Assembly (NCBI RefSeq): GCF_964340395.1
Contig: NC_135552.1
Coordinates: forward strand, 18,084,181 to 18,148,180
Length of the DNA: 64,000 bases
Source: Glandiceps talaboti
Lineage: Eukaryota > Hemichordata > Enteropneusta > Spengelidae
Direction of reading: 5' to 3'
Both the position numbers and the translations under genes were made by a program. The notes under the pieces were generated by a model. That model made no database searches, was not told the origin of the DNA, and worked only from the letters and a program-made list of their open reading frames with translations. Shown here in pieces: positions 1,656 through 55,552 of this stretch (position 1 is the first letter of the stretch; every line of letters begins with the position of its first letter).

Positions 1656-4600
1656 ATGGCGGACCACGAGTTATGCGACAGGTATCAAGTTTCTATGGAC
1701 GTTCTTGACGAAATTCGGCAAAATTTTGCAGAGGTAAGATAGTCGATTAAGTGAACACACAATAACACGTAAGCTAAGCGTATATTCAGTTGTACCGATG
1801 CGATAATTGTGTGGAACAGTCAATCACCGATGACGCCGCTCTCGTCAACGCGTAACGAAACTTGTTCGCTGCATGTTGTAAGTAAGTAAGCATGCATGAT
1901 GCAAGCACCGAAGCAGTGTTGGCGGTAGCTGTGGCACCGGTGGTTGACGGTACATATTTATTTAAAAATACAGCAGACCAAACAGCAGGTTTTACTGTGA
2001 AGATACTGTTCGCATTGACTGGTTATGATATCCGTAATATTAGGACTGTGTCATAAAGTTTCTGTACATTTTATTAACCCGTGCTGCGATAATTGAACAG
2101 CCACTGGATTTAATTAAACTGTTTCTATAATATCGTATCGTAGCCAGACGAAACATTTATACACATCAGCAACGGTGGCTGGTATCAATCATGAGTAGCA
2201 GACCGCCTATGTGGATTATGTATCGAAACCCTGATTATGGTTTGGCACTGGTACAAGTTTCATTAGTCATCAGCCATCCTCATTTATGCAGTATTTTCGT
2301 TTTCGATCTATACTTTTCGGTGTAGTAGCAGGCGTTTTTCTAAATTTGCGTGTAGACTGATGTACAACATACTGTACATGATATGACAAAATGTCATTTA
2401 TAGTGATGTCACAACATTTTGCAGGGTAAAATAAGTATGTAGTCATAGGTAACATGTATATATGTTTACATAACTGTAAAACAATGACAATAGTGTGATT
2501 GACACAATTGTTGACACAGTGGTTTAGTGATATGTGTTATATTCAGAAAAAACTTAAAAAAACTAACACTTCTGCTAGTTCATACTGGAAGAACAAAACT
2601 ATTTTTATATTCCTTATCTATAATATCTGTTGAATACACATCACTGATGACTTAAATGAAATATCTTGATGCACATAAACTATGTATAAAGAATATGTTT
2701 ATTAAGATTTCTCACTATCATATAAAATGCTAGCAACTGTAATAATAGTTGAGGGGTAAAAATTAGATTTAGGAAACACTTTGACCACTTATAGTCTCAG
2801 ACTAGATCATTGATGTCAAAGTTTATGCAGGTCTTGTTTTATTTACATATACAGATAATGAACACATACCATAATTAAAGTCTGTTGCCAGTTTTTTACA
2901 TATATCGGGACTGCCCCTCCATGAACCTGATATCAAACCCGGTAACAGCTGTATACCTGGGCTTGCTGTAAGTTTCATTTGGAAAGTCAGTGAGAGTGGA
3001 AAGAAAACTAGTGGTTGTAGGGTTTGTTGGTTTGTCTGCTTATTTTATCACTATTGACATTTATGATAGCAGAGATTGTTTCTGTGCATGAACTGTCATA
3101 AAGTATTGACATAGCACTTGTCAGTTTGTAGTCTCAGACATTCCGCTCTCCTGACATACAGGTGACATTCTGGGTAGATCCTTATCTAGAACATTGAATA
3201 TTTAAATTTAGTTGTCTTTAAAATGTCTTTGACAGTGTAAAGATGGTTTCAAGACATTTTAATACATTCAAACTCAGTCGCAAATTGTAATTGAATGTGT
3301 GTACACGTCATCGTATTGATAAAAAATTCACATAATTTGATGGTAACTCAAGAAAATTAAAAATATGAATGACATGGAAACAATAGTTGTACAGCAGACA
3401 ATGAAATGTCAGTGAGTATTCAGCTGTAATGAATTCTGTTGATGTTTTGTTTCAATGGTAGTTCAGTATGTGTGGTATGAGTCTATGACATAATGTAGCT
3501 AGGGTACAAGTACTGAATGGTTCTGCTAATGAACTTTGTTAGGTCAGACTACAAACACAAAATCCTTTCATTGAATACAAAGACTATATATGCGTGAAAT
3601 AGTCTTTGAGAAGTAATCAAAGCTGATTTGTTGTGTGCTGCAGTGAATAAAGAATTAACTTGGTTGGTTTGTTAATAGGTGGCTGTCATTACCAGTCTTG
3701 AACTACTGTTGAATACACAAAGACTGAGAGTTAGGCTACCTTTTATGGTCTCTGTCTATACTGACACTATTCACAGCGAAAGGACTTCTGTCAAAACTCC
3801 ATTTGCAGTGACTGTATTTGGTACTTTCCATATAATTTTCATGAAAGCTTATGACAAGTATTCTGATATGCCTCCCTGTGAAAAGGCTTTGATTACAAGC
3901 ATATTAATTAAACTCAACTGTCGTGCTCACATTATTCACTGCATTATAGTGCATATCAAGTCATGGGAAAATACTGTTCCATTATTTTATAAGCCATGAC
4001 AATACGCAAGGAGCTAGATTGAAGGTGGTAAAAATAGTAGTTGAAGAATTTAAGATCTTTCAGTATGAATTTGATGAATAGAACGTTTGTGAACCCAGTA
4101 AACAAAGAATGACATAATGGCTTCCGTGAAAGGAATATACTTCCTCAAGCTTGCCGAGATAAAATAATGGGTGGGGCTGAAGGTGAATGGCTGCACTGTA
4201 AAGTGATATTTTCTGAAGGTGTGTTCAATAGGTGCTGTTGTTCAGGTGAACTCAATAAAATTTAGTATGGCGTTAAAAGAATGCAGGCAAGGAAAACACA
4301 CAGTGGTGTCAGTTTTGTGGTAGAGAATAATGGCCGAAACTGAGCAATCAGATTTAACCTTGCAGTCTCCACTTCAGTTTGGGATTATTTTTAGAGAACT
4401 TGTTTACATCTAGCATATAGCATTAACAGGGAATTATGCTGTATTAACGACTTTTTCATTGTGAGTTATAGAGATAAGACTTGTTAGATGTAATATTAAT
4501 GTAAATCATTATGTAAACAATAGTGATAGCAGAGTGATATTTACTCTAATATTACACCTACACAAATAATACAAATATACATTATGATTTCATGAAGGAG

Positions 4601-13600: not shown

Positions 13601-16600
13601 GTATGTAACTAATGACTGTCTAGTACAAGTGGGACACAAATAGATATCACCCATGAACTTGAAGACGTAAACACACAAACACACACACAGACGACATATA
13701 CACACAGACAGACAGACTGACATGCATGCAAAAAATTTACAATTTTAATTTGCATTTAAAATTTGGATGGAACAGAACATATTTCAGGTTCATAGAAATA
13801 CATGTATGTCTTCCACTTCCTTGCAATATTTATCAACGACAAGAAATGGGGTATTTCTACAATCTGTATATTTATGGTCCGTGACAATTTTATCAATCTA
13901 TAATCCATACTGTGTATATTGTGGATTATTTGTAATACTAGTAGATTTGTCATGAGACAGGCTGAGGGTTGTGCATATTTATAGGGAATTCAACAGCTGC
14001 AGTAAAGATGTTATTGATAGCATATGTACATATACTAGATGAATACTACTATGTGTACATTGTGGTTTGTCTTCTTGTTTGTCTGATTATGTTGTGCACA
14101 GCTCATTTCTGGTTACTGTAGATTTGCTAGTATGACAGCAATGAGAGTATTACATCTGTGTATGATGATTGTTTACTCACTGGATATGTAACTTCTCTAC
14201 ACTATAGTGGAACTACATGTAGACTGAATGATTCACGGTTGTTGGTGCTATTCTAATATGGCCGAACCCCACGATGCGCGAATTCAAGTGTGACATACTC
14301 GGGGGTATTTGCACGAGTGCTTGCAGTGTTTTCTGCGACAGTACTTTCATGAGTGTAGCGAGTGAAAGAGCAGCAGAAAACACTGCAAGCATGAGTGCAA
14401 ATATCCCTGAGTAGCCACACTGGAACTCACATGGCATGGGGTTCTGTGATCACATGCTTTTGTGTAGCATGAATGATCGCGTCCTCATTTTCATGTCATT
14501 TGCATCATATATATGTAGGTTTGCAATGTTTTTGGTATTGCACTGCAGTGCAAATATCACCAGTAGTATGTATGCACATGTTCCGGTGCAAGTAATCTCT
14601 GGTATAATTTAAATAATTTGCTAAATACCATTTGGAACAGGTTAAAGAAGCATTTGCAATTATGAATCTTTTAGTTGATAGTGAAACGAGTGTAGTGTAG
14701 TTACAAATCTACTGAGAAGACAGTAAATGATAGACAGGTTAGAAAATGTATTTCAGAATCAAAATATTTAGGACAGTGATTATAACAGGTGCTCAATCAT
14801 TTAAAATAGCTGAAATTTAGCAAACAGCCAACTTTGGTATCAGTCAGTGTACTGTATACAAGCATGAACCCTGGAGTAGAGTTCACTCCAAGGTCTGTGA
14901 TATTAGTTATTGATGATGTATGTCTAACTACTATATTTATACTTAGCATATGGAAAACGAATGACAGATAATGATGTCATCGTCTTGGTTACGACCAGCA
15001 CCGCTTGAAAAAGTAAGACAGGAATGTAAGATTTGATTAAATTCATGAGTGACTAAAACTTGAATGATCAAAAGTCAAGGTGACAATTGTCATTAATATT
15101 TGTAGTATACTTGTCAGTGGACCTGATTTGCATCTTGTGATTGTGCAGCTGATCACATCAAAATGGTACTGATTTTGTAGACATTCAAGTCTTTATATAT
15201 GCATTTGTAGAAGTTGAGATGTATGGCATCTACAAAATGTACCTATCTGTATTTTGAACACAAATATTTACTTAGTTTACAAATTGTAAATATAAATATA
15301 GTTGTTGGACATATATGCCTCTCTAGCTAGTGAGAACATGAAGTAATCTAAAGCTAGCCCAGAGGTTTAGTCATCTAGCCCGGGCATCTAGCTTAGCCCA
15401 AAGATTTGGGTATCTGGCTTGAAAATACTGTTCACCCTAATACTGTGTTGTAGTATACTGTCAAGTCTGTATGTTGAGTCTGATAACCAAGTCAAGTCCC
15501 TGGGCTAAAACTAGCTCCACATATTGGCTCACATTCTCGCCTCCTGGCAACTAAGGACATTATCAAGCTAGATAACCAAGTGTTTAGCATTATCCCTACC
15601 TTAGTAGGTGAATCAGTTTTGATGATAACAGTAAGCTAAATGATTGAAGACCTGTATTAATGAATAACATGTATTATATCATGCACACGCCAAGTCAAAC
15701 AAAAATATGGAATATATGCTGTTGTCGTTCTACATCACTAAAACGTGCATCTCTGGCACAACAACGAGTGTCTACATCACTGGTTCTGCTGTGTTCGAAA
15801 TATGAGTCAAAACGTTCAAAATTGCTATTACTTCCCCGATTTTTCTTTGATATTATTGGCGCTGGTATAATTATGTCATTCTCCAATATTTTTCCTTCAG
15901 GTACATTTATGTCACTCGTAATTTTCTTTGGCTGAACAAAGAAAAATATTGCGGAAGAACATCTAATCGTAGTTTACAGTGACAAATATTTAGTTTCATG
16001 TCAATTGCTTTTAAAATGTAAGATGTAAAATTACAAACTAATAAACATGCAACTATTATTTCATACACCACTAGTTAGTACTCTCATTAATGAGTCAAGG
16101 TGTGAACAAGTTGGGCGTAAAGCTACTACATGCGCTCACACTTAAGAATGTGAGATTTATGTCAAGTATGTAGCAGCTTTATGTTGCTGGCTTGTACCTG
16201 CACAATGACAAATGTATATGAATTAAACTTGACAATTCTAATAAATCAATATTTAGCAAATCCACAGTAACCAGAAACTCTACCTTCGTTGACATGTGGT
16301 GTCTATAAATGGATTATGAATGTTTGCATACACAGTTTGATTTGGATGGTAATGGCCACATTACAACAAAAGAGTTGGGCTCAGTTCTTAAGTCCGTAGG
16401 TATGGATTTACCAGGTTACCGACTCAGAGATCTTGTTGCCGAGATTGACAGGGACAAAAATGGAACCATAGAGTTGGATGAATTCGTAGCAGTAAGTATT
16501 GCATTGATATCAAGTAGATGTTAGTTATATGTAGTTGTACTTGAACATTTAGTATTGATTAGACTTGAAACTGCAGCGTAGATTTACAAGTGTAGTTGCA

Positions 16601-19600
16601 GTGTAGATATGATTATATAGATCTAGACTTGAAACTGCAGCATAAATTTACAAGTGTAATTGAAGTGTAGATATGATTATATAGATCTAGACTTGGAACT
16701 GCAGCATAAATTTACAAGTGTAGTTGCAGTGTAGATATGATTATATAGATCTACACCTGAGTCTGCAGTGTAGATCTAAAAACATTTTCAGTATAGATCT
16801 ACACATGGAGCTGCAGTGTAGCAGTACAGTTGCAGTTGTAGCTGCAATGTAGATCTGCAATTGTAGATGTATAAATCTAAACTTGTAGCTGCAGTGTAAA
16901 TCTAAAATTGTAGCTACTGAGATATAGAATTGTAGATGCAGATTGATTATCAGGAATCATATCTGCTTTATAGTATACAAATGTAGCTCTACAATTATAG
17001 ATGTAGTGTAGACCTACAGATGTGATGGTAATATTTACAGACAACTATATTTCAGCTGCAATATGAATGTAGATCTAGTCTTATGATGATGTAGTTGGCC
17101 ATGATATCATCTTTTTATGAGTCCATTCCTATAATTCTGTTTCAACATGTGTTAATCTGGCCATGGAATCAATGTACAGCTGGTTTCCGTTCTTGTCAGG
17201 CATTCTTAGAAAGACATGACTTTCAAATTTGTGTCACCATGGATGTAAAAAGTTGATGTTGCTCTGTCTACCTCTACAAAACAAACATGTTAAGGATTTT
17301 GGTATATGAGAAAAAAAAACATTTCTGCATATATTATCCTAGGGTATTCCCTTAGACATGATTTCAAAACCTAAGCTGTGAACATGAAGTTTATAAACTG
17401 ACGTTTTGAAAGGTGCACATATTGAATATTTCTGAAATATGTAATTGTAATGACACAATGAAGAATCTACCATGAGTTGAACGCCATCTTTTATGAGAAT
17501 GCCTGCATGCTAGTATCAAAGTTGTAAGGACAAATTTACATGTAAACGACAAATTTCAAAGAAATATCATGGTGAAGTTTTAAGAATTGAAAGTTATTTG
17601 TCTTATTACCATGCCTATTGCAGAATAGATTTAAAAGCTAGAGGAGTCTTCTCTGTATTGCATTTGACTGTGTGATTGTAGAATATCATAGAATAGATGT
17701 AAGAGTTTGAAGTGCTTTCTTTATGGTAGATGTATTCTTCTATGAAGTCTAAGGAAGTGGCACAAACCTTCAAAAAGGCATTGTCTAAAAAGGAAGGTAT
17801 TGAAGCTAAAGGCGGTACATCTCAAGCATCCAGTGAAGGAACAACACATTCATTAGCAGAAGAAGAAACAAGTGCTTTCACTGGTAGGTTCAAATTTAGA
17901 TTTATAATGATTACATTTGTATATGACTATTGTTTACTTGCATGGGTGTGCACATATAGTGGCATACTGATGATATTGCAAATGAGCAGTGCGCCCTCTA
18001 CATTTTAACTTAGCCAATTTGATGTGCCACTGAAGCACACAATTTCTAGTGATGCACCAAAATTGGGTGTTCCCCTATCTCTTGTGGTGACTCATAAGAA
18101 ATGCCAGTTTTTATCACACTGACCAGTGTGCCCTCTAATGATAGCCAAATTTTGTTGTTGTGAGTCAAAATGAGAAAAACTGGGATTTCTTGTGAGTCAC
18201 CACGTAGTAAGAGATAGAGGAACACCAAATTTTGGTGCATCACTAGAAATTGTGTGCGTCAGTGGCATATCAAATTGACTTACATTTTGTACAGGGCACA
18301 ATGATACTGACCCACAACAACAGAGTTTGACTATCATTACAGGGCACACTGCAAATGAGCATATATATGTCTTGCAAATGAGTGAGTATACGAGCATTCA
18401 ACATGAAATCAGGAATGCATAGTCTGAAAACTACCAGTTGTGTCTCCCATCACTCCAAGAACATCACTCCAAGAAGTAAAAGTATCTTTTGTAAACTTTG
18501 GGTTGTAGAGAGTCACTTTATGATTTTACATCACTTACAGTATGGGTGATTGCCAAGAAATACGAAGTGAAAATTATCGGCCGTGAATTGTTTGGTGGTT
18601 GCTCTAATTTAGCGGTCATGCGTTTTGTGGGGCTAGCCTCATAAATATGGAATGGTTGAACCTTGCATATTCATGAGAAACAAAGAAATGTACATTGAAT
18701 ATTCATGAGTTGCCTTTTGTTACCTGTACATTTACATACTTTCCACACATGACTGGATCGGCGTTGGTTCTTTCATTTCATATTTCTCGGCAATCGCATG
18801 TAATGTAAACAATGTAAAATCATAGAATGAGTATAACCCAAAGTTTACAAAAATACCTTTACAAATGTACTTCCTGAAGTGGCATTCCCCTTTTTAAAAA
18901 AAAGGCTAAACTACACCACATATCGGAGTGCACAGTTATTTGTATGAAATTTGCATATTAATATGATCATAATGGTTTTGGTGAATTATACTGTGATGCA
19001 AAGTTAACCACTGTTCATATGAAATAACATAAATGTATTATTTTCAATCCAGTGTTTGTGTAGTGCTCAAGGGTGTGTATTTTCCAAACACCTGTACATT
19101 TTATAAAGTGCAATGCAGTCTTACAAAATTGATGTTGATGCATACATCACACCAAGACATGTCACGAGCTGTTGACAATCACTTCAACACAGAAATCTGT
19201 TTAATAAGGATATTTTGGTACTTGCAGTACCGATTTGAAAACGGCAGTCTCTAATGATCTATATGTATGTTAATGATGTCCTTTGTTTCTTTCTAATTAG
19301 CATATATTAATTCTAATCTGAAGGAAGACCCTGATTTGGCCAACAAATTGCCAATTGATGCCAAGTCTAATGATTTATTCAAATGTGTGGCTGATGGCAT
19401 ATTATTGTGGTAAGTATGAGGGGGCCACTATACAGTATTTGTCAATCATTACTACGGCACTATTAGGGATGTGTATAGCTTGTAGGTTTCTTATACAATT
19501 ACCAGCATAATCAGTATCTAATTGAAGTAAATTTCCAGGCACGAAATATGTTTTTCATTAAATTACTTGATAATGTTACTAGTATACATGTATTTAGTAG

Positions 19601-22600
19601 CAACATGATGAGATTTGGAAGTTACTTAGTTTTGGCAATCTTCTCGGTGAGAGATTTATTTGGAGCTTATCATTTGTTCTTTGTGACAAAATACCTTTTA
19701 AAAACCTTGTTTTGAAAAAAATATATATTCATGGACTTACAAGACATTCTTGATAATGGATATACTTGTAATCTGATGCTGTTGGTCTACAACGGAAGTA
19801 TCAAGAACAATAAATATGAAAAAACATCATTTATTGTGGACTGGATACACAGTGCATTACTTACTTGATACTGCACACTTTTTAAGCCTTTAACCATAAG
19901 AAAATCTGTATTTACAACTAAGATGCATGTGATATTTATTTAGTTATGTATTTGATATTTTTTGTGTCCTGTAAACCAGAGGGCTGGATGAGGCTCTTTT
20001 TTTGTAAATTTTATTTAAGTACAGTATGATTTGTTAAGTCCACATAGGACACCTAAATAAACAATAACATAACATAATATGACAGAACCCCATGGCCTCG
20101 CAATGGGTGGTAGGGCATACAGAAGTTGTTTTCATGAGTGATTCGGTTTATTCTGCCGCCATATTTTCATGAGCGATAGCTCGTGAAAATACAGCAGAAT
20201 AAACCGAATCATGAGTGGCGGTGGCGTTTGTGTCCGGTTTGGAGGCAGCTGACACAAATCTGTAAGTGTGTAAGCTGCAGACGCATGAGGGCAGTTGGCG
20301 AATCTTGCTTTTCCTGGTCGGCTATCAGTTTAAAATGACATTAAGTATTGAATTTGAATGAAAAACGTTTTATAGTTATTTGATACCTCAGAACTTGTGA
20401 TGGTTGAGAAGTGAAATACTTATGAACCAACAAGAAACTTCAAAATGTGTGCAACAACAGGAAAGACACGTATGTGCATTAAAACAAATTTATTTGCTTA
20501 TTTTCATCAGGAATTGGTTTTGCTTTAGGATCTATTTTATCTCAATTTATCTCATTTGCATAGCTAGCAGTGAAAATACCGGTTTTATTTCTGACTGTGC
20601 ATCAACACACACAGTGGTACATATGTAATAATATAACATAACATAACATAACATGACATAATATAACGTAACATCAAGAGAAAGGCCACAATTCTAAGAA
20701 AAAAAGTATTATGAATTTGATGTCATTTAAACAGCAAACTGGTCAACTTGTCTGCTCCTGATACCATTGATGAACGAGCCATCAACAGAGGATCAAAACT
20801 GAACCTGTATCTGAAACATGAGAATCTCACCTTGGCTTTGAACTCAGCTAGTTCCATTGGTTGTAAGACTGTCAACATTGGACCTGATGACTTGATGAGA
20901 GGAACTGAACATTTGGTGCTTGGACTTATGTGGCAAATCATTAGGGTATGTACATAGTGCTATGACAATGTCTGTAGGCTTAGATAGGTAAAGTCTGCCA
21001 TACGATTTGATGACACTGTGTTGGCTTACCAGCTGGACTTGAGATGTTGATAAAAAAGCGGTATACTGTAAATACTATACACAATACTATCATGACATTT
21101 TTCACTTGGGGTAAGAGTAGAGGTGGGGGTTTCTAGAACATCAGCAGGCATTATATATATCAATAGTAAGATGTCCCACTTATAGGTTGTCAACTTGGCA
21201 ACGTGAGATGAAATAGTGACTTTACATACCAAGTGTCTACTGTACATGCTGGTTTTCTCATTGGGTGATTGTCTAAGTACATGTATTTTGTCTACCAGGT
21301 TGGTTTGTTTGCAAAGATTGATTTACAACACAACCCTGGCTTGTTCAGACTTCTGAGAGAAGGTGAGGAATTGGAGGAATTAATGAAATTGTCACCTGAA
21401 GACCTTTTGATCCGTTGGGTTAACTACCAGATGGAACAAGCTGGACATCCCAGACGAATTGACAACTTCAGTGGTGATATCCATGATTCTGAAGTATACA
21501 CCCATCTATTGAAACAAATCTCACCAGCTGATGCTGGAGTTGATCTCGCTCCAATGCAGGTAAGTTGGCATTGTTACCAGTTGAGCTTAAACATATGCAA
21601 TGGCCTCCGAGTCTGACCCTTGCTTTTAAAGGTCAGAGTTTCAGTCCAAATTTCTTGTATTCATGTTATTGGATGAGTGGAGCCATGAGGATTACATAGG
21701 ATAGTTCTTTTGTTCTAGACTGAAATTTTCTATAGCTATGGAAGACAACTGTTTTATTTTATTCCAAAGCCGAACTTGGCCTGTAAGGACACATATACAT
21801 CTTATTCAGATTTTGTAGCTATTAATTTATGTTGTTTTATTTCCATGTAGGAGAGTGACCTGACAGACCGTGCTGAGGAGATGTTGAAGAATGCTGACAA
21901 GATTGCCTGCCGACAATTTGTACAAGCAACTGTGAGTACTGCTTCATAAACATCAATATATGTCTATCTGGAATAGGCCATTCCAGACTGCAAACAGGAA
22001 ATTGAGAATACAGCACCCTTGTTCAAATTGGGGGTATCATCACCTCATAGTATTGTTTCTCAAGAGCTTTGTCCCTTGGTATTCTGTAGAAGTATAAATC
22101 AGGGATGTTTTTTGTATTGTTCAGACATCGAGGAAAGCAGCAGTGCTCTATGATTAACCAAGTATTAAGTAACCATTGCCATTATCCCCCCCCCCCCCCC
22201 CCCCCCCATGGTACAGACAGACAGGAAGTAGAGTGCCACCATGGCAAATTTTTGGAAAGGCCTTTAGGTTGCACTGACCACCTACTGACACAGTAACAGT
22301 TTGCACAGTCTAGCTATTATACCCTTTTTATAACATGATATGTCAAAATATTAATTTTTATTCTCATTTATTGTTCTAAAGAGGCTCATGGTCTCACAGC
22401 TCACAGCAGTGTAAAGCAATATTACTGATAAAAACTCATACATTTGTGCACTACAAAAACAGCAGACTTAAGCAATTAATCAACACTTACAAACATAACA
22501 TGTCAGTGTTTGCAATGACACTCTTGTTTTCACATTACTTTTGCATTACATGTGGTTGCAATTAACACCTTTCAATTCACAAAATCCTTGTATTTGATTT

Positions 22601-25600
22601 CAATTTGTAAAATTTGTAAGTAGAGCATGCCAACGTTGATATTCATCATTTACATTATACTTGTCATGTTATCATGTTGATGAGGGTCGTCATTTTGTCT
22701 TTCCACCATTATTTCATACATAGGATGTTGTTACTGGAAACCCAAAACTTAACATGGCGTTTGTTGCCAACCTGTTCAACATGTATCCAGCCTTAGAAGC
22801 ACCTGAAGATGGTGAAGGAGATGACTTTGGCAAATTTGAAGAAACACGAGAAGAGAAGAGTACGTATAGCGAATCTTATTCTATAGATAAGTGTAGTACT
22901 GATAACGAGCTCTTGAATTCATCACTAACACAGCTCAATGGTAATGATGATAGCTCAGAACGAGATGTGAACACTCAAATACAGGAAACAGATGGTCTCA
23001 ATGATAACAATGTCTTGTCAACAGCTGATTCTGTTAAGTTATTGGACACTGAAATTAGCACTTTGATTGTTGATATATCTAGTTGTGAAAAAGATGGGGG
23101 TGGTGAAGAGATGGAAGGTGTGGAGGGGGAGTCAATCGCAGATGTAAAGGAGGGGAAGTCAGTGGGAGATTTGAAGAAGGGAGTGTCAGTGGGAGATTTG
23201 AAGGCAGAGGCGTCAGTAGGAAGTAATAATAAGCAATCTGAGGGGGATATGAAGGGTAGGGAGTTGGTAGAAGGTTTGAATAATGGGAATTCTGCAGCAG
23301 ATAATGATAGTTTTACTACATATCCAACAGGTACACAAAACGTAGGGCTGATAGATAGTGAAGACTGGCAAAAGTACAATAGTCAGGAGATGAGAGAAAG
23401 TAGGGACCTTAGAGGCACCAACGGTGTAAATGATAATTCACATACTGTAGAGAAACAGAAAAGAGACACAGACGACATATCACTAGAAGAGTTTGCTGCC
23501 AGCTCAATCAGAAAAACAAATGATAACAACCATACTGAATGTGCAACTGAGAGTAACAGAGTTAGGGTAGGAGAGGGTAGTCAGAAAAGACAGACTAAGG
23601 GTCAAGGTACAGCCAGGCAGGGTACAACTCACAGGGTCAAAACTAGTACAGATGATCAGTCATCCAGACAACAACTTACAAGTGAGCAAAGAACACTTAC
23701 AACAGACCAAACTATATCGGATAACAAACACACCACAGATTCTAATACAGTCACCTCAGAAGTGTTGTGTTGTGCTGTAATCATTGCTTGTGTCGCAATA
23801 TGTGCATTTTACTATTTTCATTAAATGTCAGTCAAGCGTTGGTTTCTGTGTTGCTTATTTCATGATGTAGCACTTATGTTTAGCACAATTATGTTGCCTG
23901 TGTTTCGCTTAATATCACTCAGACTTTAAGTGCTACCTATGTTCATTAAATTCATTTAAACACAAGTTAGAATTAGTGCTACTGTGTTGCATATTTCATT
24001 AAACACAATTCAGAACTAGTGCTACTATGTTGCATATTTCATTAAACAAGTCAGATTTAGTGTTGCTATGTGAAACCAGTCATGCTAACTAGTCATGTAA
24101 TGCTACTATGTTGCATATTTCATTAAACACAAGTCAGAAGTAGTGCTACTATGTTGCATATTTCATTAAACACGTCAGAAGTAGTGCTACCATGTTGCAT
24201 ATTTCATTAAATATGTCAGAATTAGTGCTACTGTGTTGCATATTTCATTAAACACAAGTCAGAATTAGTGCTACTATGTTGCATATTTCATTAGATACAA
24301 GTCAGAAGTAGTGCTACTATGTTGCATACTTCATTAAACATATTAGAATTTGTGGATCCTTGTTTAATATTTCAGTGGTTCTGTTGTGTTGCATATTTCA
24401 TTATTAAAGCAGGAGTCTGAATTATAGCTTTAATGTTCGAAGTATCGATCACAATTAATGCTTCTATGTTTTGCATATAATTGAATCTTACATTTAGTTG
24501 GAATCAAAGTTACTATGTTGCACATTTCATGATTTTGGTTCGGATTATGACAATTATGTTGCACACTTCATGACGTCACATGTGCTGATTTCACAATACT
24601 AAATACAGTACTTCAGACATGAACTCCAGGGGGCGCTATATTGAGAGGTTTTCATGTTGATATCAGATGGTGATGATCAAATTATCCCTAAAATTCAAAC
24701 CAATCATGTTTAAGCATCTTGAAGTGCACAAAATTGTCTGCGTTATGTTTGTATGCTTGGGTAAATGAGATGTATAAATTATTATCTTTGATGTGTTGTA
24801 TGTTCTGTTTCATTGGTATCATGTACTTCATATCTTTTGGACGTGTACGGTATATTTGGCTATCAACACAGACATTTTTTGCTCATCTGTTGTATCATTT
24901 TCCATTCTTTGACTTGGAGCTATGTATCTGGTGATGGTGTAACTTTCTGTCATGTTTTTTTCCACATACCACATACTTACTGCAAGCAAGGCTATGTAAT
25001 TTGTATTATTGCAGGTAACCACACTCTATTTAACAGAATATATATCAGCTCTTGATACACAAAGCTTTCAAATTTTTCTTTTTAATAGACACATTTATTG
25101 AACTAAATTGATAATTGCAGGTGATAATATGGGTGAATCCTGTGCCTTGTTGACATTGTAAGACAACTATCATAGCGTCTTACATATATTTCGTAATGTC
25201 TTTTAACTTGCCAAGCCCAATATTAAAACAAGTCTTAGGTTTATATGTATTATAAGTGTTTTGTCACGCTGATTGAAGCATCACTTGCCTGTAGAGTGAA
25301 AGATTTTGTCAGTGTTGGTACTCCTGCTAATAGTTAGCTAATCTGATAAGGCAAAATAAGAAAAAATTGTGTGTTTCCAGTAACCTAACCGACCCTAGTT
25401 TAAGTTGCTGACCCTAAACATTTGAAACATTTAAAACAAAAAGTGAAGAAATTCGTTGTCTTCTTGACCTTCATACACGTCTGTTTTCTTTCCCCAGTCA
25501 TGTCTGTACATATTTCATCAAAATATCACAGAAGGGGTATTCTGACCAACATTTCATTTATTTTTGGGTCGAAGCAATATTTTTCAAAAATAAAAACAAT

Positions 25601-28600: not shown

Positions 28601-30520
28601 TTTTTTTTTTGGGGGGTGGGGGGGGGGGTGGTGGTGGTCAGTTCTCACAGCAGACCAAATTTTACTAAATTCACTAGATGTACAAATGATATTGTAGGAA
28701 CAGTCCATGTATAATCATTATGACGTCATTCTGTATGTAAAGCTGGTTAAAATCCCAGAGAAAAAGTTGTCAGATATAGGCCAGTTTTCCCTAAGAATCA
28801 CTTATAGATAAAAATGGTATATAAAAAACTCCTTGGGAAGACATGGCCTAATTTGAGATGCCTAATAGTACATTAAATCTTGATAACATAACAATGGTAA
28901 CAATGTCAGATTCATGTCACGCTAAAAAATAACCACCTCGTACACTATCCACCAGCCAATCACTATCTATAAGTCTACCTGGCCAATTGTCAAACCAACA
29001 CGGCCTTTCTGTTTTACTAGCATTAGGTCACACCATGCACATTTACTATTACAATTGTCAAAAGATATGTCCCACTATCTGTATGCAAATCCTGAGGTCT
29101 TACATCGGGCAAATGAAATATTATGTCAAATTAGACAGGTGTACAAAACACAGGTGTGAAAAGACTTGCCATTGATTGGCCAATCACAGACAATGTCCAA
29201 TCATACCTGTACGCAACATCCTAAGGTCATTAATTTGGTTAACTGAAATATATCATGGCAGATAAAATAGATGCATAAAATATAGACTTGGCATTGACTG
29301 ACCAATCATAGACAAACCTCAATGAGTATATACAAAAACCTATAGTCCTCTGTTGGTTGGTCAACTGAAATACTTTGTCAAATTAGATTGGTACACAAAA
29401 TACAGGTGTTAGGGCTTGTCATTGATCAGCCAATCACAGACAATGTTTAATCATATCTGTATTCATAATCCTGAGTCATCTATTGGTCAACTGAAATATG
29501 TCAAATGAGATAGGTACACAAAATATGTTTGCTAGGAAGGGGAACCACTAACTGGTCAATTACATTGACACAAGATGCAGGTAACAGGGATGTACTGTGG
29601 GTCAATTCAAATTTTAATGTCCCATCAAATCTGCATGAAAATAAGCGGTTTAAGAGTCACTGATTTGTTAGTCATGCTGATTTCTCTGCAAAATCCAGGT
29701 GTTAGGGATAGTGATTGGATGTAAATTAATGGGATATTATCTCTTCTGGATCTGATATTCAAAGCATCACCCAAAATCCAGGTGTTAGAATGTGACATTG
29801 AAACACTGATTGGCTAGTTTGTTATCATTCTACCAATCAGATGTACAGGTGTTAGGCGAGATAGACACCAATTGGCTAATATTTTACGTACTACCAATCA
29901 GATAGATGTACAGAGTGAATCCAGGTGTTAGGCAAGATAGACACCAATTGGCTAATATTTTACGTTCTACCAATCAGATAGATGTACAGAGTGAATCCAG
30001 GTGTTAGGCAAGATAGACACCAATTGGCTAATATTTTACGTTCTACCAATCAGATAGATGTACAGAGTGAATCCAGGTGTTAGGCAAGATAGACACCAAT
30101 TGGCTAATACTTTACGTTCTACCAATCAGATAGATGTACAGAGTGAATCCAGGTGTTACGCGAGATAGACACCAGTTGGCTAATATTTTACACTGTATTC
30201 ACTAAATTCAGATGTTTAAGGAGGTCCATTGATAGGTTAAACAAGATAATGCAAGGTGTTAGGGAAGGGTTATTATTGATAGAAATGCAAGGACTTTCTG
30301 GCTCTCCAAGTTTCTGCGTTATATCTCAACAAAATGTAAAATATGGTAAATCTTGTCAAACTGTTAATGAGTTTCCAAAATTTATGGACAACCATTACCA
30401 CTATTAATTTTATTTCTTCTGAGATATGATATACTTAATGGTATGTCTCAAAAACTACATTGTCTATATTAGAAATATGTTCTTGCCCATACACTTCATA
30501 AAATACAGTACACACGCACG

Positions 30521-30559
<39 letters not shown>

Positions 30560-32864
30560 GCACGCACACGCACATACAATAACACAATTTCAATATGCAT
30601 ATCTGAGGTTCTGACTAAATCTCGCATTTAGGTCTGAACAACAACATTTTACAAAGTTCGACCTCATGCAAATAACCAAAACTCAAGATGTGAGTAGGAA
30701 CCTGAGATGTTTATATTGTATTGTTTTTGAGTACATCTTGCTGAACTGTATGTACTTCCTGTACAAGTCAGAAGTAAGTTCTGCATCCGAGGAAAAAATC
30801 CAGTTTTGTGTGATCCTCAAAAGATGGTATCTGGTTCTCTCTAAAAAAACAAAAACAAAGTCAGGTCCGTACCATATCTCTACCAGGTTTGTACACAACA
30901 ATGTATTCCTATACTAATACGTTGTGTTTATACCCCCACCTCTGACCACTTTGAATGGCGTGGTCTGAAGTCACATGCTGTGTGCTTTTAGAGAAAATAG
31001 CATGGCGAAGTGGCATCTCAGATAAATAGATACTCTGCTGTGTTGCTAGTATTCAAAAGTATAGACATTTTTTGAATGAAAATAGACCGTGGTGGTGCAT
31101 GTCACACATAAGCTGGTGTAATGGACCAGTCAGTGCACTGTTTATTATAATCTGAGTCTCACTATGCACTTCTAAATCTAACCATTTCATCATTCAGTAT
31201 ATTATCCCGTAGTTGTTATCTGACAAATTTTGTCTCTCCAATCACGGAACATGGTGACAGGAATCGCCTTGTAACTACAAAGTTGAAAACTTCAATTTAT
31301 AAGATTCTTGCATATCACTCATGTTGTCTGTGAAAGGAGATAAAAATACTACATATATGGATGATATTGTATGTTGTAGAGACCGAGATAGTGAACTGAC
31401 AAGGAACTACCAAATGATCTCCTCAAATATTCTGTGTGTTGACCTAAAATCGTCGTCAGCTTGGTAGATCAAATGACTTACACAGGTTATAACACACACA
31501 GTTCAAAGTTGTTTAGTATTGAGCTCAGTGCTCAGTGCTAAAAACTTTGAAAAGCTTGTTCGTTAAAACCTATTTAAGTGGTTCTATGTGTTGTTATAAT
31601 ACCACTAAAATGTTCTTGAAGTGCACCAGAATCTGAAAAAAAATTGAATTTCATATTGCCATGTATGATATCGGAATTAATAAGTATAATTAAATGAATG
31701 AATGCTCTATTTTCAAAGTAATCATGTGAAAACTAACAATTATTAATTGTACAGGATAACATGGTTTTATTGCTGATTGGAGAATCAGTTTGTATTATGT
31801 AGTCAATAGTACAAGTAGAGCTGATATTGAATAGCAAATAACTAGATATACTAGAATGCCAACAATGCTGTAAAAGTGTAATACTAACAAATATGCAATG
31901 TGGGTTTTTATTTTCTTGTTTTGTTTTAATAGCATGACTGTTTTATATAGTTTATTTAGGGGATTATTTCAGACGTTTTATCACTTGCCTTACAGCATTC
32001 CGTAACTGGATGAACAGTCTTGGCATCAATCCATATGTCCAACACTTGTACAGTGATCTCTGCGATGGCCTGGTCATAATACAGGTAAGTGTTATGGAAT
32101 ATGAGAATATGAAATGGTGACCACTCTGTTTAGATACAAATGTTAATGAAAATATATAAATAAATAAATAAATAAATAAACAAGGAATGGTCCTGGTGTC
32201 CTCAGTGATCTCTGTCAAGACTAGGCTGTTGTATAGATGATTGTCTTTTCTTAGTCAAACATGTTTGCATTGGTTTGGGTCATTGTACAGGATGTGCGTG
32301 GAGATATAGATTTGTATATCTCTACATTTTGGCTTCTTTGCACACATAACTTTACAATCATATTGTGCTTTTTTCTTGTGAATTTTACTTGGTTCAGAAA
32401 ACATACTTTAATAGTTAATTTCAAAATCACCATTTTTCATAACTCTTTAAATGTGGAATACATTGTCTTTATTATTATCGAGACTGCAGTGGGACAGGGC
32501 TGCAGGAACTGTATTTCCTGGTTGAAGGTTTGTCCCATTTGTGAGATATTCATTCTATTGCTGTCCTTTATTATTAGTTATTTGATAACGTGAAACCAGG
32601 CTGTGTGGAGTGGAACCGAGTGAACAAACCTCCATGGCCCAAGATTGGTGGTGGTAAAATGAAGAAAATTGAAAATTGTAATTATGCTGTTACTCTTGGC
32701 AATAATATCAAATTTTCATTGGTTGGTATTGAGGGAAACGATATCCATGATGGCAATGAAACATTAACTCTAGGTAAGTTAAAATTGTACAAATTAAACA
32801 GCTGTACACATACACCTTGATACACACCAGGTTTTTTTCTCTCTCCCTCCCTCCCTCTCCCTCC

Positions 32865-32947
<83 letters not shown>

Positions 32948-33029
32948 CTCTCTCCCCCTCCCTCCCTCCCTCCCTCTCTCTCTCCCTCCCTCCCTCCCTC
33001 TCTCCCTCCCTCCTCTCTCCCTCCCTCCT

Positions 33030-33079
<50 letters not shown>

Positions 33080-35683
33080 CTCTCTCACTCTCTCTCTCTC
33101 TCTCTCACTCTCTCTCCCCCCCCCCACATACACACGCCCCACACTCACGTTCATGTATGTTTGCGCAGCGTAATCTATGTGTAGAATATCTCATCTGAAT
33201 GTATCAAAAGTGTTTATAAAGACTCAAAGTTTACTTTGTTGATGACAAGAGCTCTTCCTGCAAATAAACAGCACCAAGTAAAATGTATAAATATACATAA
33301 GAATTGAAACTGATCAGAAGCTGTTTCCTTCAAATGCAAAAAAAAAAAGTTGTAATAAGGTGTAAAGAAGTTGTCTGCATTCATAATTAGACTGTGTGTG
33401 TACCTTGAAGTATGTATCCATTCCTGTTACTTAGGATGGTGTTTAACTAGCGGGAAAATTGAACAATGCAAGATTTCAGATCAATTCTGAATTTAGATCG
33501 ATTTTGAGCAAAGTGATATGCCTATATGTGTTATTACTAAACTCACTTGTGGTTGATGATTGGTTACTGTTTAATTACAGCTATTGTGTGGCAGTTGATG
33601 AGGGCATATACGTTACGTATTCTGCAACAAATATCAGAATCTAAACAGCCCATAACTGACAAAGAGGTTGTTGAATGGTGTAACAATACAGTAAGTTTAA
33701 TATTTCATAACACTCTTTGTAAGGGTGACCCCATTTTTTTTCATTTTTCTCATTACTCTTTCATAACAACTATGAGTGGGTGGTGGGTCGGTTGATTTAT
33801 GAAAAAAAAGTTTTAAAAAGAATCCATCTTTGTCATGTTTCTCTGTCTCTCCTTTTCCTCCTCTCCATCTTCTTTTTATTGGAGTCCTGATAACAAGCCC
33901 TTTTCTAGCTTCTCTACACAATTGCCCTACTCAAATAATTTCCGTTACGAAAGAAATGCTCTGCTCATGAACAAGTATCGTCATCAGTGCCATGACTGTA
34001 GATGACATCGACAGTCCAGACACTTGCTTATTAGCCCCCGCCGGGCATAGTCCGGGGCGGGGGCTTATAGATTGGGCTCTGTCCATCCATCCGGACATAT
34101 GTGCGTCCGGAGCCATATCTTGGACATTCATTGACCGATTTCGTTCAAACTTAGTAAATGGATAATGAACTATGACTTACGTATGCATGTCAATTTGTTT
34201 TGGGTATGATGAATTTAGCCAACTTAGAGCCATTTTTGGGTCAAAAATGTGATTTTTGGTCAAAAAACATAAACTCCAACACTACTGGGCAGATTAGCCT
34301 GAAATTTGGTTGGAATGTTCTGTGTTATTCTGCAAATTTTCTGTAAAACATTGTGGCCCTAGCAACAATAATCATGCCCATAGCAACAACCAAATGGCAG
34401 TGTGTTTTGGTCAAATAACAACCTCATCAGGTAGGCAGGTGGATAAACATTTAAAAAATGTATACAAATGAACCTAGCAACAAGACCACGCCCATAGCAA
34501 CAGCCAAATGACCACGCATATCGCAAATTTAACATTGATTAATAGGCAATCGAATAAACATTCAAGAAAGGTATGTAAATGTGCCTAGCAACAGGACCAC
34601 ACCCATAGCAACAACCAAATGATCCAGTATAGTGCAAAGATAACAATGAATAATGAATCTGTAATGAGTTATGGTCATTCCAGGTTATTTGGGTTTTAAA
34701 AGAAAGAAATAAGTCAACCTAGAATATTTCTAATCTTAAAGAATGTCTGATTTTGTTTGTTTGTAGCTGAAGAAAGCCCAAAAGACTTCACATATTAACA
34801 ATTTCCAGGATCACAGTATTAGTGACAGTAGGGCAGTGGTAGATTTAATAGATGCCATCAAACCAGGATCAATCAACTACAAGAACTTCAGAGAAAACCC
34901 CAGCAGTGATACAGTGAGTATTAATATTATTAACACTGAAGTAAAGCTTTTCTCTGTGCTACACTCGTTTATAGCATTCATAGTACAATGAGTAACACTG
35001 AAGTAAAGCACTTTCTTGATGTGCTACACTCATTTATAGCTTTCATATCAAGTATAAAAATATACTGTTTCAATTGGTTTATTTACAAGCCTAGCATGTG
35101 GCCTTTCGAATGTGGTCAATTAGCAAATGAAACAGTATACTTTTACACTTGATGTGGATGATATAAATGATTGTGGTATATACAGAAAACTCTTTACTTT
35201 GGTGTTATAGGTTGTATTGCCTACCTCACATGTCACATACTTGCATTGCATGTTTAATAGATTAGCACCAGTCCTTCACTAACTGACTCACATGGAGAAC
35301 ATGCAGTAAACAGTTTCAGGAGATCATCAAAACACCTCATAGATATTACAAGTCAGGAGTGTTTTAAGTGATGGTTTTTGTTGACATCACAGTGTTGTAT
35401 GTTACCATATCTTGTCTGTTTTGTTATCATGACACTGAGAAAGGTACATGCTAAGTGTTGAACTAGCTAACAAGACAGTCTGATTTTAATTCATGCTCTG
35501 TAATCCTGTGTTGTGTATCTCTTGTAGGACAAATTTTTGAATGCCAAGTATGCAATCTCGATGGCCCGTAAAATTGGAGCCCCAGTATATGCCTTGCCTG
35601 AAGACTTGGTAGAAGTCAAACCCAAAATGGTAATGACAGTGTTCGCCTGTCTGATGGCTCGTGGTATGACGACCTCCAAATAG
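1656..35683 (+). CDS. PLS: Plastin/fimbrin, Ca2+-regulated actin-bundling protein (13 coding exons, complete)
   Basis: Plastins cross-link actin filaments into tight parallel bundles in microvilli, filopodia and stereocilia; Ca2+ binding to the EF-hands weakens bundling. Coding exons: 1656-1733, 16336-16491, 17730-17883, 19301-19409, 20735-20945, 21299-21559, 21851-21931, 22724-22859, 31996-32084, 32578-32773, 33581-33690, 34767-34913, 35528-35683. All junctions are GT-AG and all phases agree, giving 627 residues, close to the usual 630. EF loops lie at residues 28-39 ([12 protein letters not shown]) and 64-75 ([12 protein letters not shown]), both with canonical Ca2+ ligands. CH1-CH2 cover about 122-375 and CH3-CH4 about 395-620. 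Family signatures include [32 protein letters not shown] and [22 protein letters not shown] near the end. The start was chosen because exon 1 gives the EF-hand entering helix ([10 protein letters not shown]) in phase with exon 2. Exon assignment is by eye. An alternative intronic C-terminus is listed separately. Confidence 0.96.
9865..9985. repeat. Two-copy tandem duplication
   Basis: Two adjacent copies of a unit of about 58 bp share the strings catatgacattcatgccac, atcagctaccac and ctgaacaacacaaca, differing by a short insertion and a few substitutions. It lies within plastin intron 1 and has no coding content. Confidence 0.7.
14262..14446. mobile_element. Foldback (snapback) MITE-like element, copy 1
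   Basis: Nearly the whole segment is one hairpin. The left arm begins with gaaccccac and runs through gcttgcagtgttttctgc; the right arm carries the reverse complement, gcagaaaacactgcaagc, and closes with gcatggggttctg. Arms are about 88 bp and the centre reads tttcatgagtgtagcgagtg. No coding capacity and no clear target duplication. A related hairpin is at 20084-20240. Confidence 0.65.
15664..15935. repeat. Dispersed repeat, copy 1 (plastin intron 1)
   Basis: This segment aligns by eye with 40880-41110. Shared blocks in the same order include gtcgttctac followed by atcac/gtcac, a ggttctgc block, tcgaaatatgagtcaaaacg, and an AT-rich 3' part ending in ccaatatttttcctt / ccaatattttccttt. Similarity is perhaps two thirds overall with local near-identity. 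No coding frame is preserved between the copies, and the 91-codon frame lying over copy 1 is therefore not treated as a gene. Confidence 0.6.
16336..16491 (+). CDS. PLS: Plastin exon 2: both EF-hand Ca2+ loops
   Basis: This single exon (52 codons, phase 0 at both ends) encodes both EF-hand loops of plastin (residues 27-78), separated by the linker [15 protein letters not shown] typical of the family. Position 1 of each loop is Asp and position 12 is Glu, so both sites look competent for Ca2+. The acceptor follows a pyrimidine-poor tract ending in acacag and the donor is gtaagt. An in-frame ATG lies upstream at 16309, inside intron 1; a start there would lack the first EF helix, so I treat it as intronic. 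Confidence 0.93.
16492..17729 (+). other. Plastin intron 2 with 64-bp minisatellite
   Basis: Starting 70 bp after the donor, a unit of 64 bp is repeated: starts at 16561, 16625, 16689 and 16753, with the motif agacttgaaactgcagc and the end gattatatagatct. After these copies the array decays into shorter units of the form ctgcagtgtagatct up to about 17050. The rest of the intron is unique AT-rich sequence. Confidence 0.85.
16559..17050. repeat. Minisatellite, 64-bp units decaying into short ctgcag/tagatct units
   Basis: Three well-kept 64-bp copies followed by degenerate short ones. The array sits close to the 5' end of intron 2, as do other minisatellites in this window, but unlike those at 42.0 and 54.0 kb its unit does not include the splice donor itself. 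Confidence 0.85.
17987..18351. mobile_element. hAT-like MITE, copy A, with an 8-bp target duplication and a nested copy
   Basis: The element begins cagtgcgccctct and ends agggcacactg, imperfect inverted termini. It is flanked by an exact 8-bp duplication, caaatgag, at 17979-17986 and 18352-18359. It is interrupted at 18124-18303 by an inverted copy of the same family. Terminal CAGTG and 8-bp duplications are typical of hAT transposons; there is no transposase, so it is non-autonomous. It lies in plastin intron 3. Confidence 0.85.
18124..18303. mobile_element. hAT-like MITE, copy B, nested inside copy A in opposite orientation
   Basis: This 180-bp copy starts cagtgtgccctct and ends acagggcacaatg. 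Flanks acactgac (18116-18123) and atactgac (18304-18311) match at 7 of 8 bases and read as the target duplication of the second insertion. Removing copy B restores continuous alignment of copy A with copy C (26173-26342). The two inverted copies together make a long hairpin. Confidence 0.85.
18460..18888. mobile_element. Long-terminal-inverted-repeat foldback element
   Basis: The left part (about 18460-18577) and the right part (about 18770-18888) are inverted copies of each other over roughly 120 bp. Paired strings include ttttgtaaactttgggtt against aacccaaagtttacaaaa, atgattttaca against tgtaaaatcat, and gattgccaagaaatacgaa against its slightly diverged complement. The intervening 190 bp are unrelated to either arm. 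No reading frame and no convincing target duplication. Confidence 0.65.
20084..20240. mobile_element. Foldback element, copy 2 (right end altered)
   Basis: A strong hairpin at about 20132-20214 pairs tcatgagtgattcggttt with its complement aaaccgaatcatga, around the centre ttttcatgagcgatagctcg. The left end has cagaaccccatgg, matching the terminus of the element at 14262-14446, but the right end does not complete the inverted repeat, so it is truncated or diverged. Located in plastin intron 4. Confidence 0.55.
20626..20675. repeat. (ATAAC)n short tandem repeat
   Basis: Pentanucleotide run of taacataacataacat type, 20 bp or more, in plastin intron 4; a similar short stretch occurs at about 20062-20083 beside the foldback element. 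Confidence 0.8.
22186..22207. repeat. Poly(C) run
   Basis: An uninterrupted C run of about 22 bases in plastin intron 7. Its length should be treated as uncertain because homopolymers are prone to sequencing error. Confidence 0.9.
22724..23824 (+). CDS. PLS: Plastin exon 8 read-through: alternative terminal exon with C-terminal membrane anchor
   Basis: Exon 8 normally ends at 22859 (donor gtacgt), but the same frame continues without a stop to 23824. The resulting isoform would be 716 residues: 395 shared with plastin (EF-hands plus CH1-CH2), then 321 unique ones. The unique part is rich in Asp, Glu, Ser, Thr and Asn with almost no Pro. It contains a short tandem repeat around residues 487-540 (variants of SVGDLKKGV) and a basic Gln/Thr-rich segment near 620-690. 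It ends with a hydrophobic stretch at 697-715 ([19 protein letters not shown]) followed only by His. One segment this close to the end is the layout of a tail-anchored protein; four Cys lie in it. An open run this long is very unlikely by chance in AT-rich intron. CH3-CH4 are absent, so bundling should be lost while actin binding remains. No transcript evidence is available here. Confidence 0.75.
23965..24355. repeat. Minisatellite of about 42-bp units carrying ATTAAA
   Basis: Around eight units of the form gtgctactatgttgcatatt followed by tcattaaacacaagtcagaa, with units of 41 to 43 bp and one unit interrupted by about 20 bp of other sequence. Nearly every unit contains ATTAAA, the commonest variant of the animal poly(A) signal; one copy has ATTAGA. 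The array begins about 140 bp after the stop codon of the alternative plastin exon and could provide its 3' ends. The function is inferred. Confidence 0.8.
26173..26342. mobile_element. hAT-like MITE, copy C
   Basis: A 170-bp element with termini cagtgtgccctct and gagggcacactg, a 12-bp inverted repeat with at most minor mismatch. Flanks ctactcat (26165-26172) and gtacacat (26343-26350) agree at 6 of 8 bases, consistent with an old target duplication. It is the clean reference copy for the nested pair at 17987-18351. A 33-bp two-copy tandem repeat (caccatacattaa units) lies just upstream at about 26091-26155. Confidence 0.8.
28048..28350. mobile_element. Candidate MITE with cagggctcaagattaac termini
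   Basis: The left end cagggctcaagattaac and the right end gttaatttcaagctcta form an imperfect inverted repeat. Between them the string ggctacca recurs several times and a C/A homopolymer run precedes the right end. No target duplication is evident, so the assignment is tentative. Confidence 0.45.
28960..30190. repeat. Composite CCAAT-rich minisatellite block
   Basis: The first part (to about 29540) has four diverged units of roughly 117-133 bp, each with a gaaatat/caaatt stretch, a gccattgattggccaatcac-like stretch and an atcctgag-type end. After a transition zone, a well-conserved 76-bp unit repeats with aggtgtta at 29923, 29999, 30075 and 30151. Each 76-bp unit includes caccaattggctaat and taccaatcagatag, so it carries CCAAT on both strands several times. 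It lies in plastin intron 8; no coding frame runs through it. Confidence 0.85.
30511..30573. repeat. (CA)n microsatellite with CG-containing interruptions
   Basis: Run of cacacgcacgcacgcacacac type in plastin intron 8. The reading frames over it are artefacts of the repeat. Confidence 0.95.
32839..33125. repeat. (CT)n/(CCCT)n polypyrimidine tract of nearly 290 bp
   Basis: An almost pure pyrimidine stretch on the + strand lying 65 bp after the donor of plastin exon 10. It alternates ct, ccct and cctc units, with single G or A interruptions near the 3' end. Both strands give long reading frames of Ser-Leu or Arg-Glu repeats, which are not genes. Such mirror-like homopurine/homopyrimidine DNA can form triplex structures. 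Confidence 0.95.
34034..34650. repeat. Interspersed repeat with GC-rich terminal hairpin and internal tandem units
   Basis: It opens with a hairpin, gcccccgccggg paired with ccggggcgggggc (34034-34064), conspicuous in this AT-rich DNA. A body of about 290 bp follows. Then come three units beginning cctagcaaca at 34358, 34473 and 34584 (about 111-115 bp apart), each with cccatagcaacaaccaaatg or a close variant. The structure suggests a non-autonomous dispersed element; there is no reading frame. Located in plastin intron 11. Confidence 0.6.
34990..35208. mobile_element. Foldback element in plastin intron 12
   Basis: Left arm from taacactgaagtaaag to atactgtttcaattg; right arm, inverted, from tgaaacagtata to tttactttggtgtta. 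Arms are about 85 bp and roughly three quarters identical by eye. A second, partial copy of the left arm precedes it at about 34937-34975. No coding capacity. Confidence 0.6.
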
Positions 35684-35830
35684 ATCAATTGATCTTATCA
35701 AATGTTCTTTCTCAGTTTGACTGAGTTGGCAAATCATATGAATAAAGCTAATCATATATACATTGAATTAGGATTGTATAAAATGCAAAATGCATCAAGA
35801 ATCTATTACCAAATAAAGTTGTTTTTTTAA
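35684..35830 (+). promoter_or_regulatory. Plastin 3' UTR with two AATAAA poly(A) signals
   Basis: AATAAA occurs at 35741-35746 and 35812-35817, 58 and 129 bases after the plastin stop codon; the second is followed by a T-rich stretch (gttgtttttttaaaa). Either would give a short 3' UTR. Use of both is an inference. Confidence 0.75.
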
Positions 35831-36449: not shown

Positions 36450-36950
36450 GACCAAAACCTTGTAGCTAGCCAGCTGATGAGAGTTTTGTTATCGCAGTCA
36501 ACCACGTTGTAACATTGTAGCTAGCGAATGAACAGTTCTCTTATCACAGTCCACCCACTTTGTAACAGTGTAGCTAGCTGATGAAGAGTTCTATTATCAG
36601 AGTCCACAATCTTGTAACAGTGTAGCCAATTGATGAACAGTTCTATTATCAGAGTTCACCACCTTGTAACAATGTAGCTAGCTGATGAACAGTTCTGTTA
36701 TCACAATCCACCATCTTGTAACAATGTAGCTAGCTGATGAAGAGCTGTTATCACAGTCTACCACCTTGTAACAATGTAGCTATCTGATGAAGAGTTCGAT
36801 TATCACAATCCACCACCTTGTAACAATGTAGCTATCTGATGAAGAGTTCGATTATCACAATCCACCACCTTGTAACAATGTAGCTATCTGATGAAGAGTT
36901 TTATTATCACAGTCCACCATCTTGTAACAGCGTAACCAGCTGATTAAGAG
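36450..36950. repeat. Minisatellite of about 53-bp units
   Basis: Nine to ten units of the form caccttgtaacaatgtagct followed by agctgatgaagagttctatt and atcacagtc. The most similar adjacent copies are at 36765-36925. It lies about 0.7 kb downstream of the plastin poly(A) signals. No reading frame persists through it. Confidence 0.85.

Positions 36951-46212: not shown

Positions 46213-49614
<3,402 letters not shown>

Positions 49615-51287: not shown

Positions 51288-55552
<4,265 letters not shown>

Follow-up and report, generated by a model that had tools for sequence, protein, structure and literature searches.

The question raised by this locus is whether a plastin gene of the hemichordate Glandiceps talaboti can end inside one of its own introns, and whether the product of such an ending would be held in a membrane. 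The window (the whole stretch of DNA analysed, 64,000 nucleotides) corresponds to contig 5:18084181-18148180 of the 590-Mb assembly of this species.

Canonical plastin gene and the open extension of exon 8

The canonical plastin gene occupies the + strand from 1656 to 35683 and has 13 exons (Table 1); every donor is GT and every acceptor is AG. The product spliced from the 13 exons has 627 amino acids and is identical, letter for letter, to P0001, which is the NCBI protein 'plastin-2-like [Glandiceps talaboti]'. Pfam analysis identified an EF-hand pair (EF-hand_7 at residues 18-81) and four CH stretches, and the plastin-3 structure 7r94 aligns to residues 10-623. The canonical spliced form has the organization that defines the plastin/fimbrin family, an EF-hand pair and, after it, two actin-binding domains (ABDs) of tandem CH type, with four CH domains in all. 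Two AATAAA signals lie near the canonical 3' end, at 35741 and 35812. Joining exon 8 to 31996 reproduces P0001 exactly, so the exon 8 donor at 22859 is real. This donor agrees with the consensus at 6 of 9 positions, the lowest score among the 12 donors, tied with exon 2. Intron 8, from this donor to 31996, has 9,136 bases and is the second longest in the gene. Scoring used the common donor consensus and common hydropathy scales.

Table 1. Features of the plastin locus, in positions of the window
Feature	Position	Strand	Evidence
Plastin exon 1, start codon, MADHEL...NFAE	1656..1733	+	matches P0001
Plastin exon 2, most of EF-hand pair	16336..16491	+	Pfam EF-hand_7
Plastin exon 3, region after EF-hands	17730..17883	+	matches P0001
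Plastin exon 4, ABD1	19301..19409	+	matches P0001
Plastin exon 5, ABD1	20735..20945	+	matches P0001
Plastin exon 6, ABD1	21299..21559	+	matches P0001
Plastin exon 7, ABD1	21851..21931	+	matches P0001
Plastin exon 8, canonical form, donor AGA/GTACGT in codon 396, ABD1-ABD2 linker	22724..22859	+	matches P0001; 1aoa/3byh alignments
In-frame extension of exon 8, 965 bases including stop: hydrophilic linker, membrane-type segment, stop	22860..23824	+	frame, coding signature, hydropathy
27-bp (9-codon) tandem repeats in extension, then diverged AEASVGSNN	23122..23229	+	repeat scan
19-residue hydrophobic segment, predicted tail anchor, isoform residues 697-715	23762..23818	+	Kyte-Doolittle mean 2.64; AF2 helix
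ATTAAA polyadenylation-type signal, overlaps stop codon	23820..23825	+	motif scan
43-bp minisatellite, 9.7 copies, eight ATTAAA; candidate polyadenylation region of short transcript	23929..24340	+	repeat and motif scan
Plastin exons 9-13, ABD2 and stop, canonical form only	31996-32084, 32578-32773, 33581-33690, 34767-34913, 35528-35683	+	matches P0001

The initial annotation had described exon 8 as open for 321 codons past its donor, and this was borne out. The unspliced frame runs to a TAA at 23822-23824, which gives 366 codons counted from 22724, and one split codon plus 320 whole codons lie beyond the donor. After the 11 other internal donors an in-frame stop occurs within 1-41 codons, versus 321 for exon 8 (split codon included). 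The three forward frames of the extension contain 0, 21, and 48 stops; if 69 stops were placed randomly in the frames, one of the three would be stop-free with a probability of about 2e-12. Given the dinucleotide make-up of the rest of the intron, any single starting point would open into a 321-codon run with a probability of about 6e-10; for one donor, the earlier estimate of well below one in a million is correct.

Control segments of 960 nt were taken in 160-nt steps on both strands of 15 sampled 10-kb loci, with N-containing segments excluded. A stop-free frame was present in 16 of the 1,684 segments, spread over four loci; 12 of these share one 960-residue open frame in locus L015, and 4 are in L006, L007, and L008. 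These loci look like genes or mobile elements rather than plain intron. The 150-kb genome sample contains 18,366 open runs, 12 of which have at least 300 residues (6 masked-N artefacts, 2 in simple tandem repeats, and 4 gene- or mobile-element-like). Since long open frames also occur elsewhere in the genome sample, open length alone is insufficient as proof, and the extension is taken as coding on its composition and frame, not on its length.

Coding contrast was calculated with a model of base use by codon position, which was trained on the canonical exons, with the extension outside the training. The in-frame contrast is 0.311 for the extension versus 0.305 for the canonical coding sequence, which had served as training data. 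Of 4,000 random draws of 960 nt from the 15 loci, 53 contained N and were dropped; the remaining 3,947 all stayed below the extension, with a maximum of 0.233. The introns of the plastin gene itself gave the same picture: 187 overlapping segments, cut from six introns or parts of introns, peaked at 0.135. The quarters of the extension gave 0.359, 0.404, 0.307, and 0.174, and the in-frame reading was favoured in all four. The last quarter, which holds the hydrophobic end, has the weakest contrast, with 0, 1, and 6 stops per frame. Because of this low contrast and the few stops in the other frames, the anchor is the least supported part of the extension. The repeat period is 27 bp inside the extension, a multiple of three, and 43 bp after the stop. 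Compared with the 590-Mb genome of the species, the extension has one match at E <= 0.001, namely itself, and on this basis a repeat or transposon origin was rejected. We take the extension to be protein-coding, now or until recently.

Several other features of the window were recorded. Exons of two adjacent glutathione S-transferase genes are located on the + strand at 47781-48068 and 53725-54075 (Pfam GST_N_3, E 1.8e-10 and 2.6e-11); likely later exons are at 49270-49611, without a family match, and at 55211-55549, with GST_C_2 at E 0.004, below the family cut-off. We presume from the look of the sequence that both genes belong to the Omega class. Further minisatellites occur at 29846-30191 in intron 8 (76-bp, 97% matches) and at 36467-36951 downstream of the plastin gene (52-bp, 86%). 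Long TC/AG microsatellites at 32838-33116 and 48896-49231 give spurious open frames of more than 100 residues. The window has no Rfam match at the gathering score, and a known structured RNA and a tRNA were both rejected.

Predicted short product and its hydrophobic tail

Translation of exons 1-7 with the extended exon 8 gives a predicted product of 716 amino acids, with the EF-hands, the switch-helix region, and CH1-CH2, and without CH3-CH4. In structure alignments, residues 100-369 pair with solved ABD1 (1aoa) and residues 389-619 with solved ABD2 (3byh). Exon 8 ends at the ABD1-ABD2 border in these alignments, and ABD1 is therefore complete in the predicted short form. Four CH domains are expected of a plastin/fimbrin, and the predicted short form diverges from the canonical protein before CH3-CH4; it would be a product of the plastin gene and not a complete plastin. 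About 300 hydrophilic residues follow ABD1, with 57 D+E and 32 K+R in the 320 residues of the extension. This linker is acidic and rich in Ser/Thr/Asp, and is likely disordered.

A 19-residue hydrophobic segment one residue before the stop had been reported, and it was confirmed at the C-terminus, where a single His separates it from the stop. In a hydropathy scan of all 716 residues, the maximum falls on this segment, and windows starting before residue 690 do not exceed 1.44. The AF2 single-sequence model of exon 8 with the extension (366 residues) predicted a helix at 345-365, with block mean pLDDT values of 66 (341-350), 90 (351-360), and 85 (361-366). The pLDDT is below 50 for 324 of the 366 residues, which points to a disordered linker; lacking an alignment, the model of the exon 8 part itself is poor. 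The predicted short form has one C-terminal hydrophobic segment, no other membrane-type segment, and no hydrophobic N-terminus, which is the arrangement of tail-anchored proteins. The genome sample contains 4,526 random open runs that end in a stop and have 20 residues or more, and 25 of them close with an equally hydrophobic 19-mer; a hydrophobic end by chance is rare, yet not vanishingly so. When exon 8 and the extension were queried together, no Pfam family was found at E <= 1, and a known domain in the extension was rejected on this ground.

No homologue of the tail was identified in about 5.8 billion proteins, which were searched with different length ranges and denser words. Among the proteins listed in the search, the three named hemichordates (G. 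talaboti, Ptychodera flava, and Saccoglossus kowalevskii) show one plastin each, of the full-length kind. A short isoform of at least 380 residues sharing exon 8 should have appeared in this search, since the exon 8 part alone suffices for a match. Of the 48 proteins listed for exon 8 with the extension, none covers more than 16% of the query, the first ~11% of which is canonical exon 8. This leaves three readings: an annotation that lacks the short form, a tail of recent origin or rapid change, or a tail that is seldom used. The earlier statement that no plastin isoform of this kind is known agrees with the open-licence papers listed, none of which, by title and abstract start, describes a membrane or truncated plastin isoform.

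Proposed alternative 3' end and competing explanations

ATTAAA occurs ten times within 23820-24403, about 17 per kb, compared with a background of 1.9 per kb for AATAAA/ATTAAA on the + strand of the window. Eight of the ten are not independent, because all eight belong to one minisatellite. This 43-bp array may have spread its ATTAAA through repeat growth. Extended exon 8 has the structure of a composite terminal exon, with a usable 5' splice site upstream of intronic polyadenylation signals in the same exon, the signals being candidates. Human composite terminal exons are typically associated with large introns and weak donors according to the available text of PMC3708835, and AAUAAA/AUUAAA is present in 80% of the human events in that of PMC5928244. 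The same part of PMC5928244 also describes much longer introns for skipped than for composite terminal exons, and a depletion of transmembrane-domain genes among users of intronic polyadenylation; these two findings count against the composite-exon reading here.

The initial annotation had proposed that intron retention with early polyadenylation would make a membrane-bound, Ca2+-responsive, single-ABD protein. The open frame, the coding signature, the single-ABD layout, the predicted C-terminal helix, and the polyadenylation-type signals all speak for this proposal, but its 'Ca2+-responsive' part was weakened. It is probable that the exon 8 extension is used as an alternative last exon, which would give a single-ABD plastin whose C-terminal helix is predicted to hold it in a membrane. 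The wider reading is favoured by a smaller measure: through the choice of intronic polyadenylation, the plastin gene may switch between a soluble two-domain bundler and a membrane-inserted one-domain tether, and a calmin-like protein may have evolved within a plastin gene in one acorn-worm lineage, with its anchor in an annotated intron.

In the proposed mechanism, the weak donor of the 9.1-kb intron would be left unused, and cleavage and polyadenylation would occur near 23.8-24.4 kb, as in a composite terminal exon. Whether the bundler or the membrane tether is made would depend on which of the two competing processes, splicing or cleavage, prevails. The EF-hands, the switch-helix region, and ABD1 (CH1-CH2) would be cytosolic, followed by the ~300-residue linker, and the tail anchor would be inserted post-translationally. 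The short form would bind one filament and tie it to the membrane; the spliced form would bundle two.

The extension might also be part of a longer internal exon, in which a downstream in-frame donor joins 31996 to give a full plastin with a long disordered ABD1-ABD2 linker, and the hydrophobic end is seldom, if ever, produced. Two donors in the extension have the phase of exon 9 and agree with the consensus at 7 of 9 positions each (23681, CAA/GTGAGC; 23117, AAG/GTGTGG), and the drop of the coding contrast in the last quarter is consistent with this arrangement. However, the frame stays open beyond the two donors and takes in the protein's one membrane-type segment, and the 48 proteins listed include no annotated plastin that carries a linker of this sort. 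This alternative is unlikely. We give a similarly low standing to the possibility that the short transcript is a damper, where intronic polyadenylation diverts plastin transcripts and the hydrophobic-tailed product is cleared by BAG6 and the proteasome. C-terminal hydrophobicity has been linked to proteasomal degradation of noncanonical proteins, and the authors doubt that tail anchoring is the fate of many of them (PMC12863090, available text); the empty search of ~5.8 billion proteins for the tail also fits. But the same text describes tail-anchored proteins as being recognised at the SGTA/BAG6 checkpoint and escaping degradation despite their hydrophobic tails. Moreover, a damper needs no 320 open codons, and the coding signature of the extension equals that of the canonical exons.

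It is more doubtful that the open frame is a separate nested gene, or a coding relict that was inserted into the intron and shares the frame of exon 8 by luck. No homologue links the tail to plastin and a lucky in-frame join has about one chance in three, but the frame is continuous through the donor without a stop, and the extension has neither a second genome match at E <= 0.001 nor a Pfam family. A chance open frame in non-coding intron is the least credible explanation and very improbable: the long open runs in the genome sample are in its favour, but they are set against the ~6e-10 per start at intron composition and a coding contrast that no random or own-intron segment matched. The use of the extension as an alternative last exon is considered the best explanation.

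Comparison with known systems and calcium control

The predicted short form was compared with proteins of related layout. It would come from the same gene as a plastin/fimbrin (PLS1-3, Sac6, and FimA being family members), and the EF-hand pair, the following region, and CH1-CH2 are common to both. It differs in the absence of CH3-CH4, so it would not bundle in the same way, and in its membrane-type C-terminus. Calmin (CLMN) has a tandem CH actin-binding domain and a C-terminal transmembrane segment, and is encoded by a separate gene without the EF-hands of plastin. Only the layout is alike; in the present case it would arise when the plastin gene uses an alternative 3' end. Nesprins (KASH proteins) have an N-terminal tandem CH actin-binding domain and a C-terminal membrane anchor. 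They carry a KASH peptide after the membrane helix, whereas the predicted short form has one His and no KASH-type tail. KASH/nesprin membership was rejected for this reason, together with the lack of a Pfam family at E <= 1 in exon 8 with the extension. Of the resemblance to calmin or nesprins that had been suggested, the likeness to nesprins is weak.

The available text of PMC5928244 and PMC3708835 describes the IgM-type composite terminal exon, where the C-terminus and the membrane state change when the 5' splice site is passed over and a polyadenylation signal in the intron is used. Use of the intronic site costs IgM its membrane anchor; in plastin it would add one. An intronic polyadenylation that adds, rather than removes, a membrane anchor would be the novel aspect in plastin.

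According to the available text of PMC5286426, no proteins other than plastins are known to have two actin-binding domains in tandem, and bundling is given as their primary function in that of PMC7244493. For plastin 3, Ca2+ inhibits bundling but affects binding only marginally, and ABD2 is locked in the model proposed (PMC7244493, available text). For L-plastin, the switch helix was proposed to steady ABD1 (PMC5286426, available text). Published work puts Ca2+ control mainly on ABD2, which is absent from the short form, and this goes against the 'Ca2+-responsive' label; on the other side, PMC5286426 lets the switch helix act on ABD1. Since ABD2 is the main Ca2+-controlled part in these works, the actin binding of the short form would likely be less Ca2+-sensitive than the bundling of the full form.

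If the proposed reading is true, a changed 3' end would be enough to turn a bundler into a tether, opposite in direction to the IgM switch. The two published models disagree on the site of Ca2+ action (ABD1, or mainly ABD2), and the short form would be a natural test between them. It would also be a membrane-actin linker new to the hemichordate proteins matched in the protein search.
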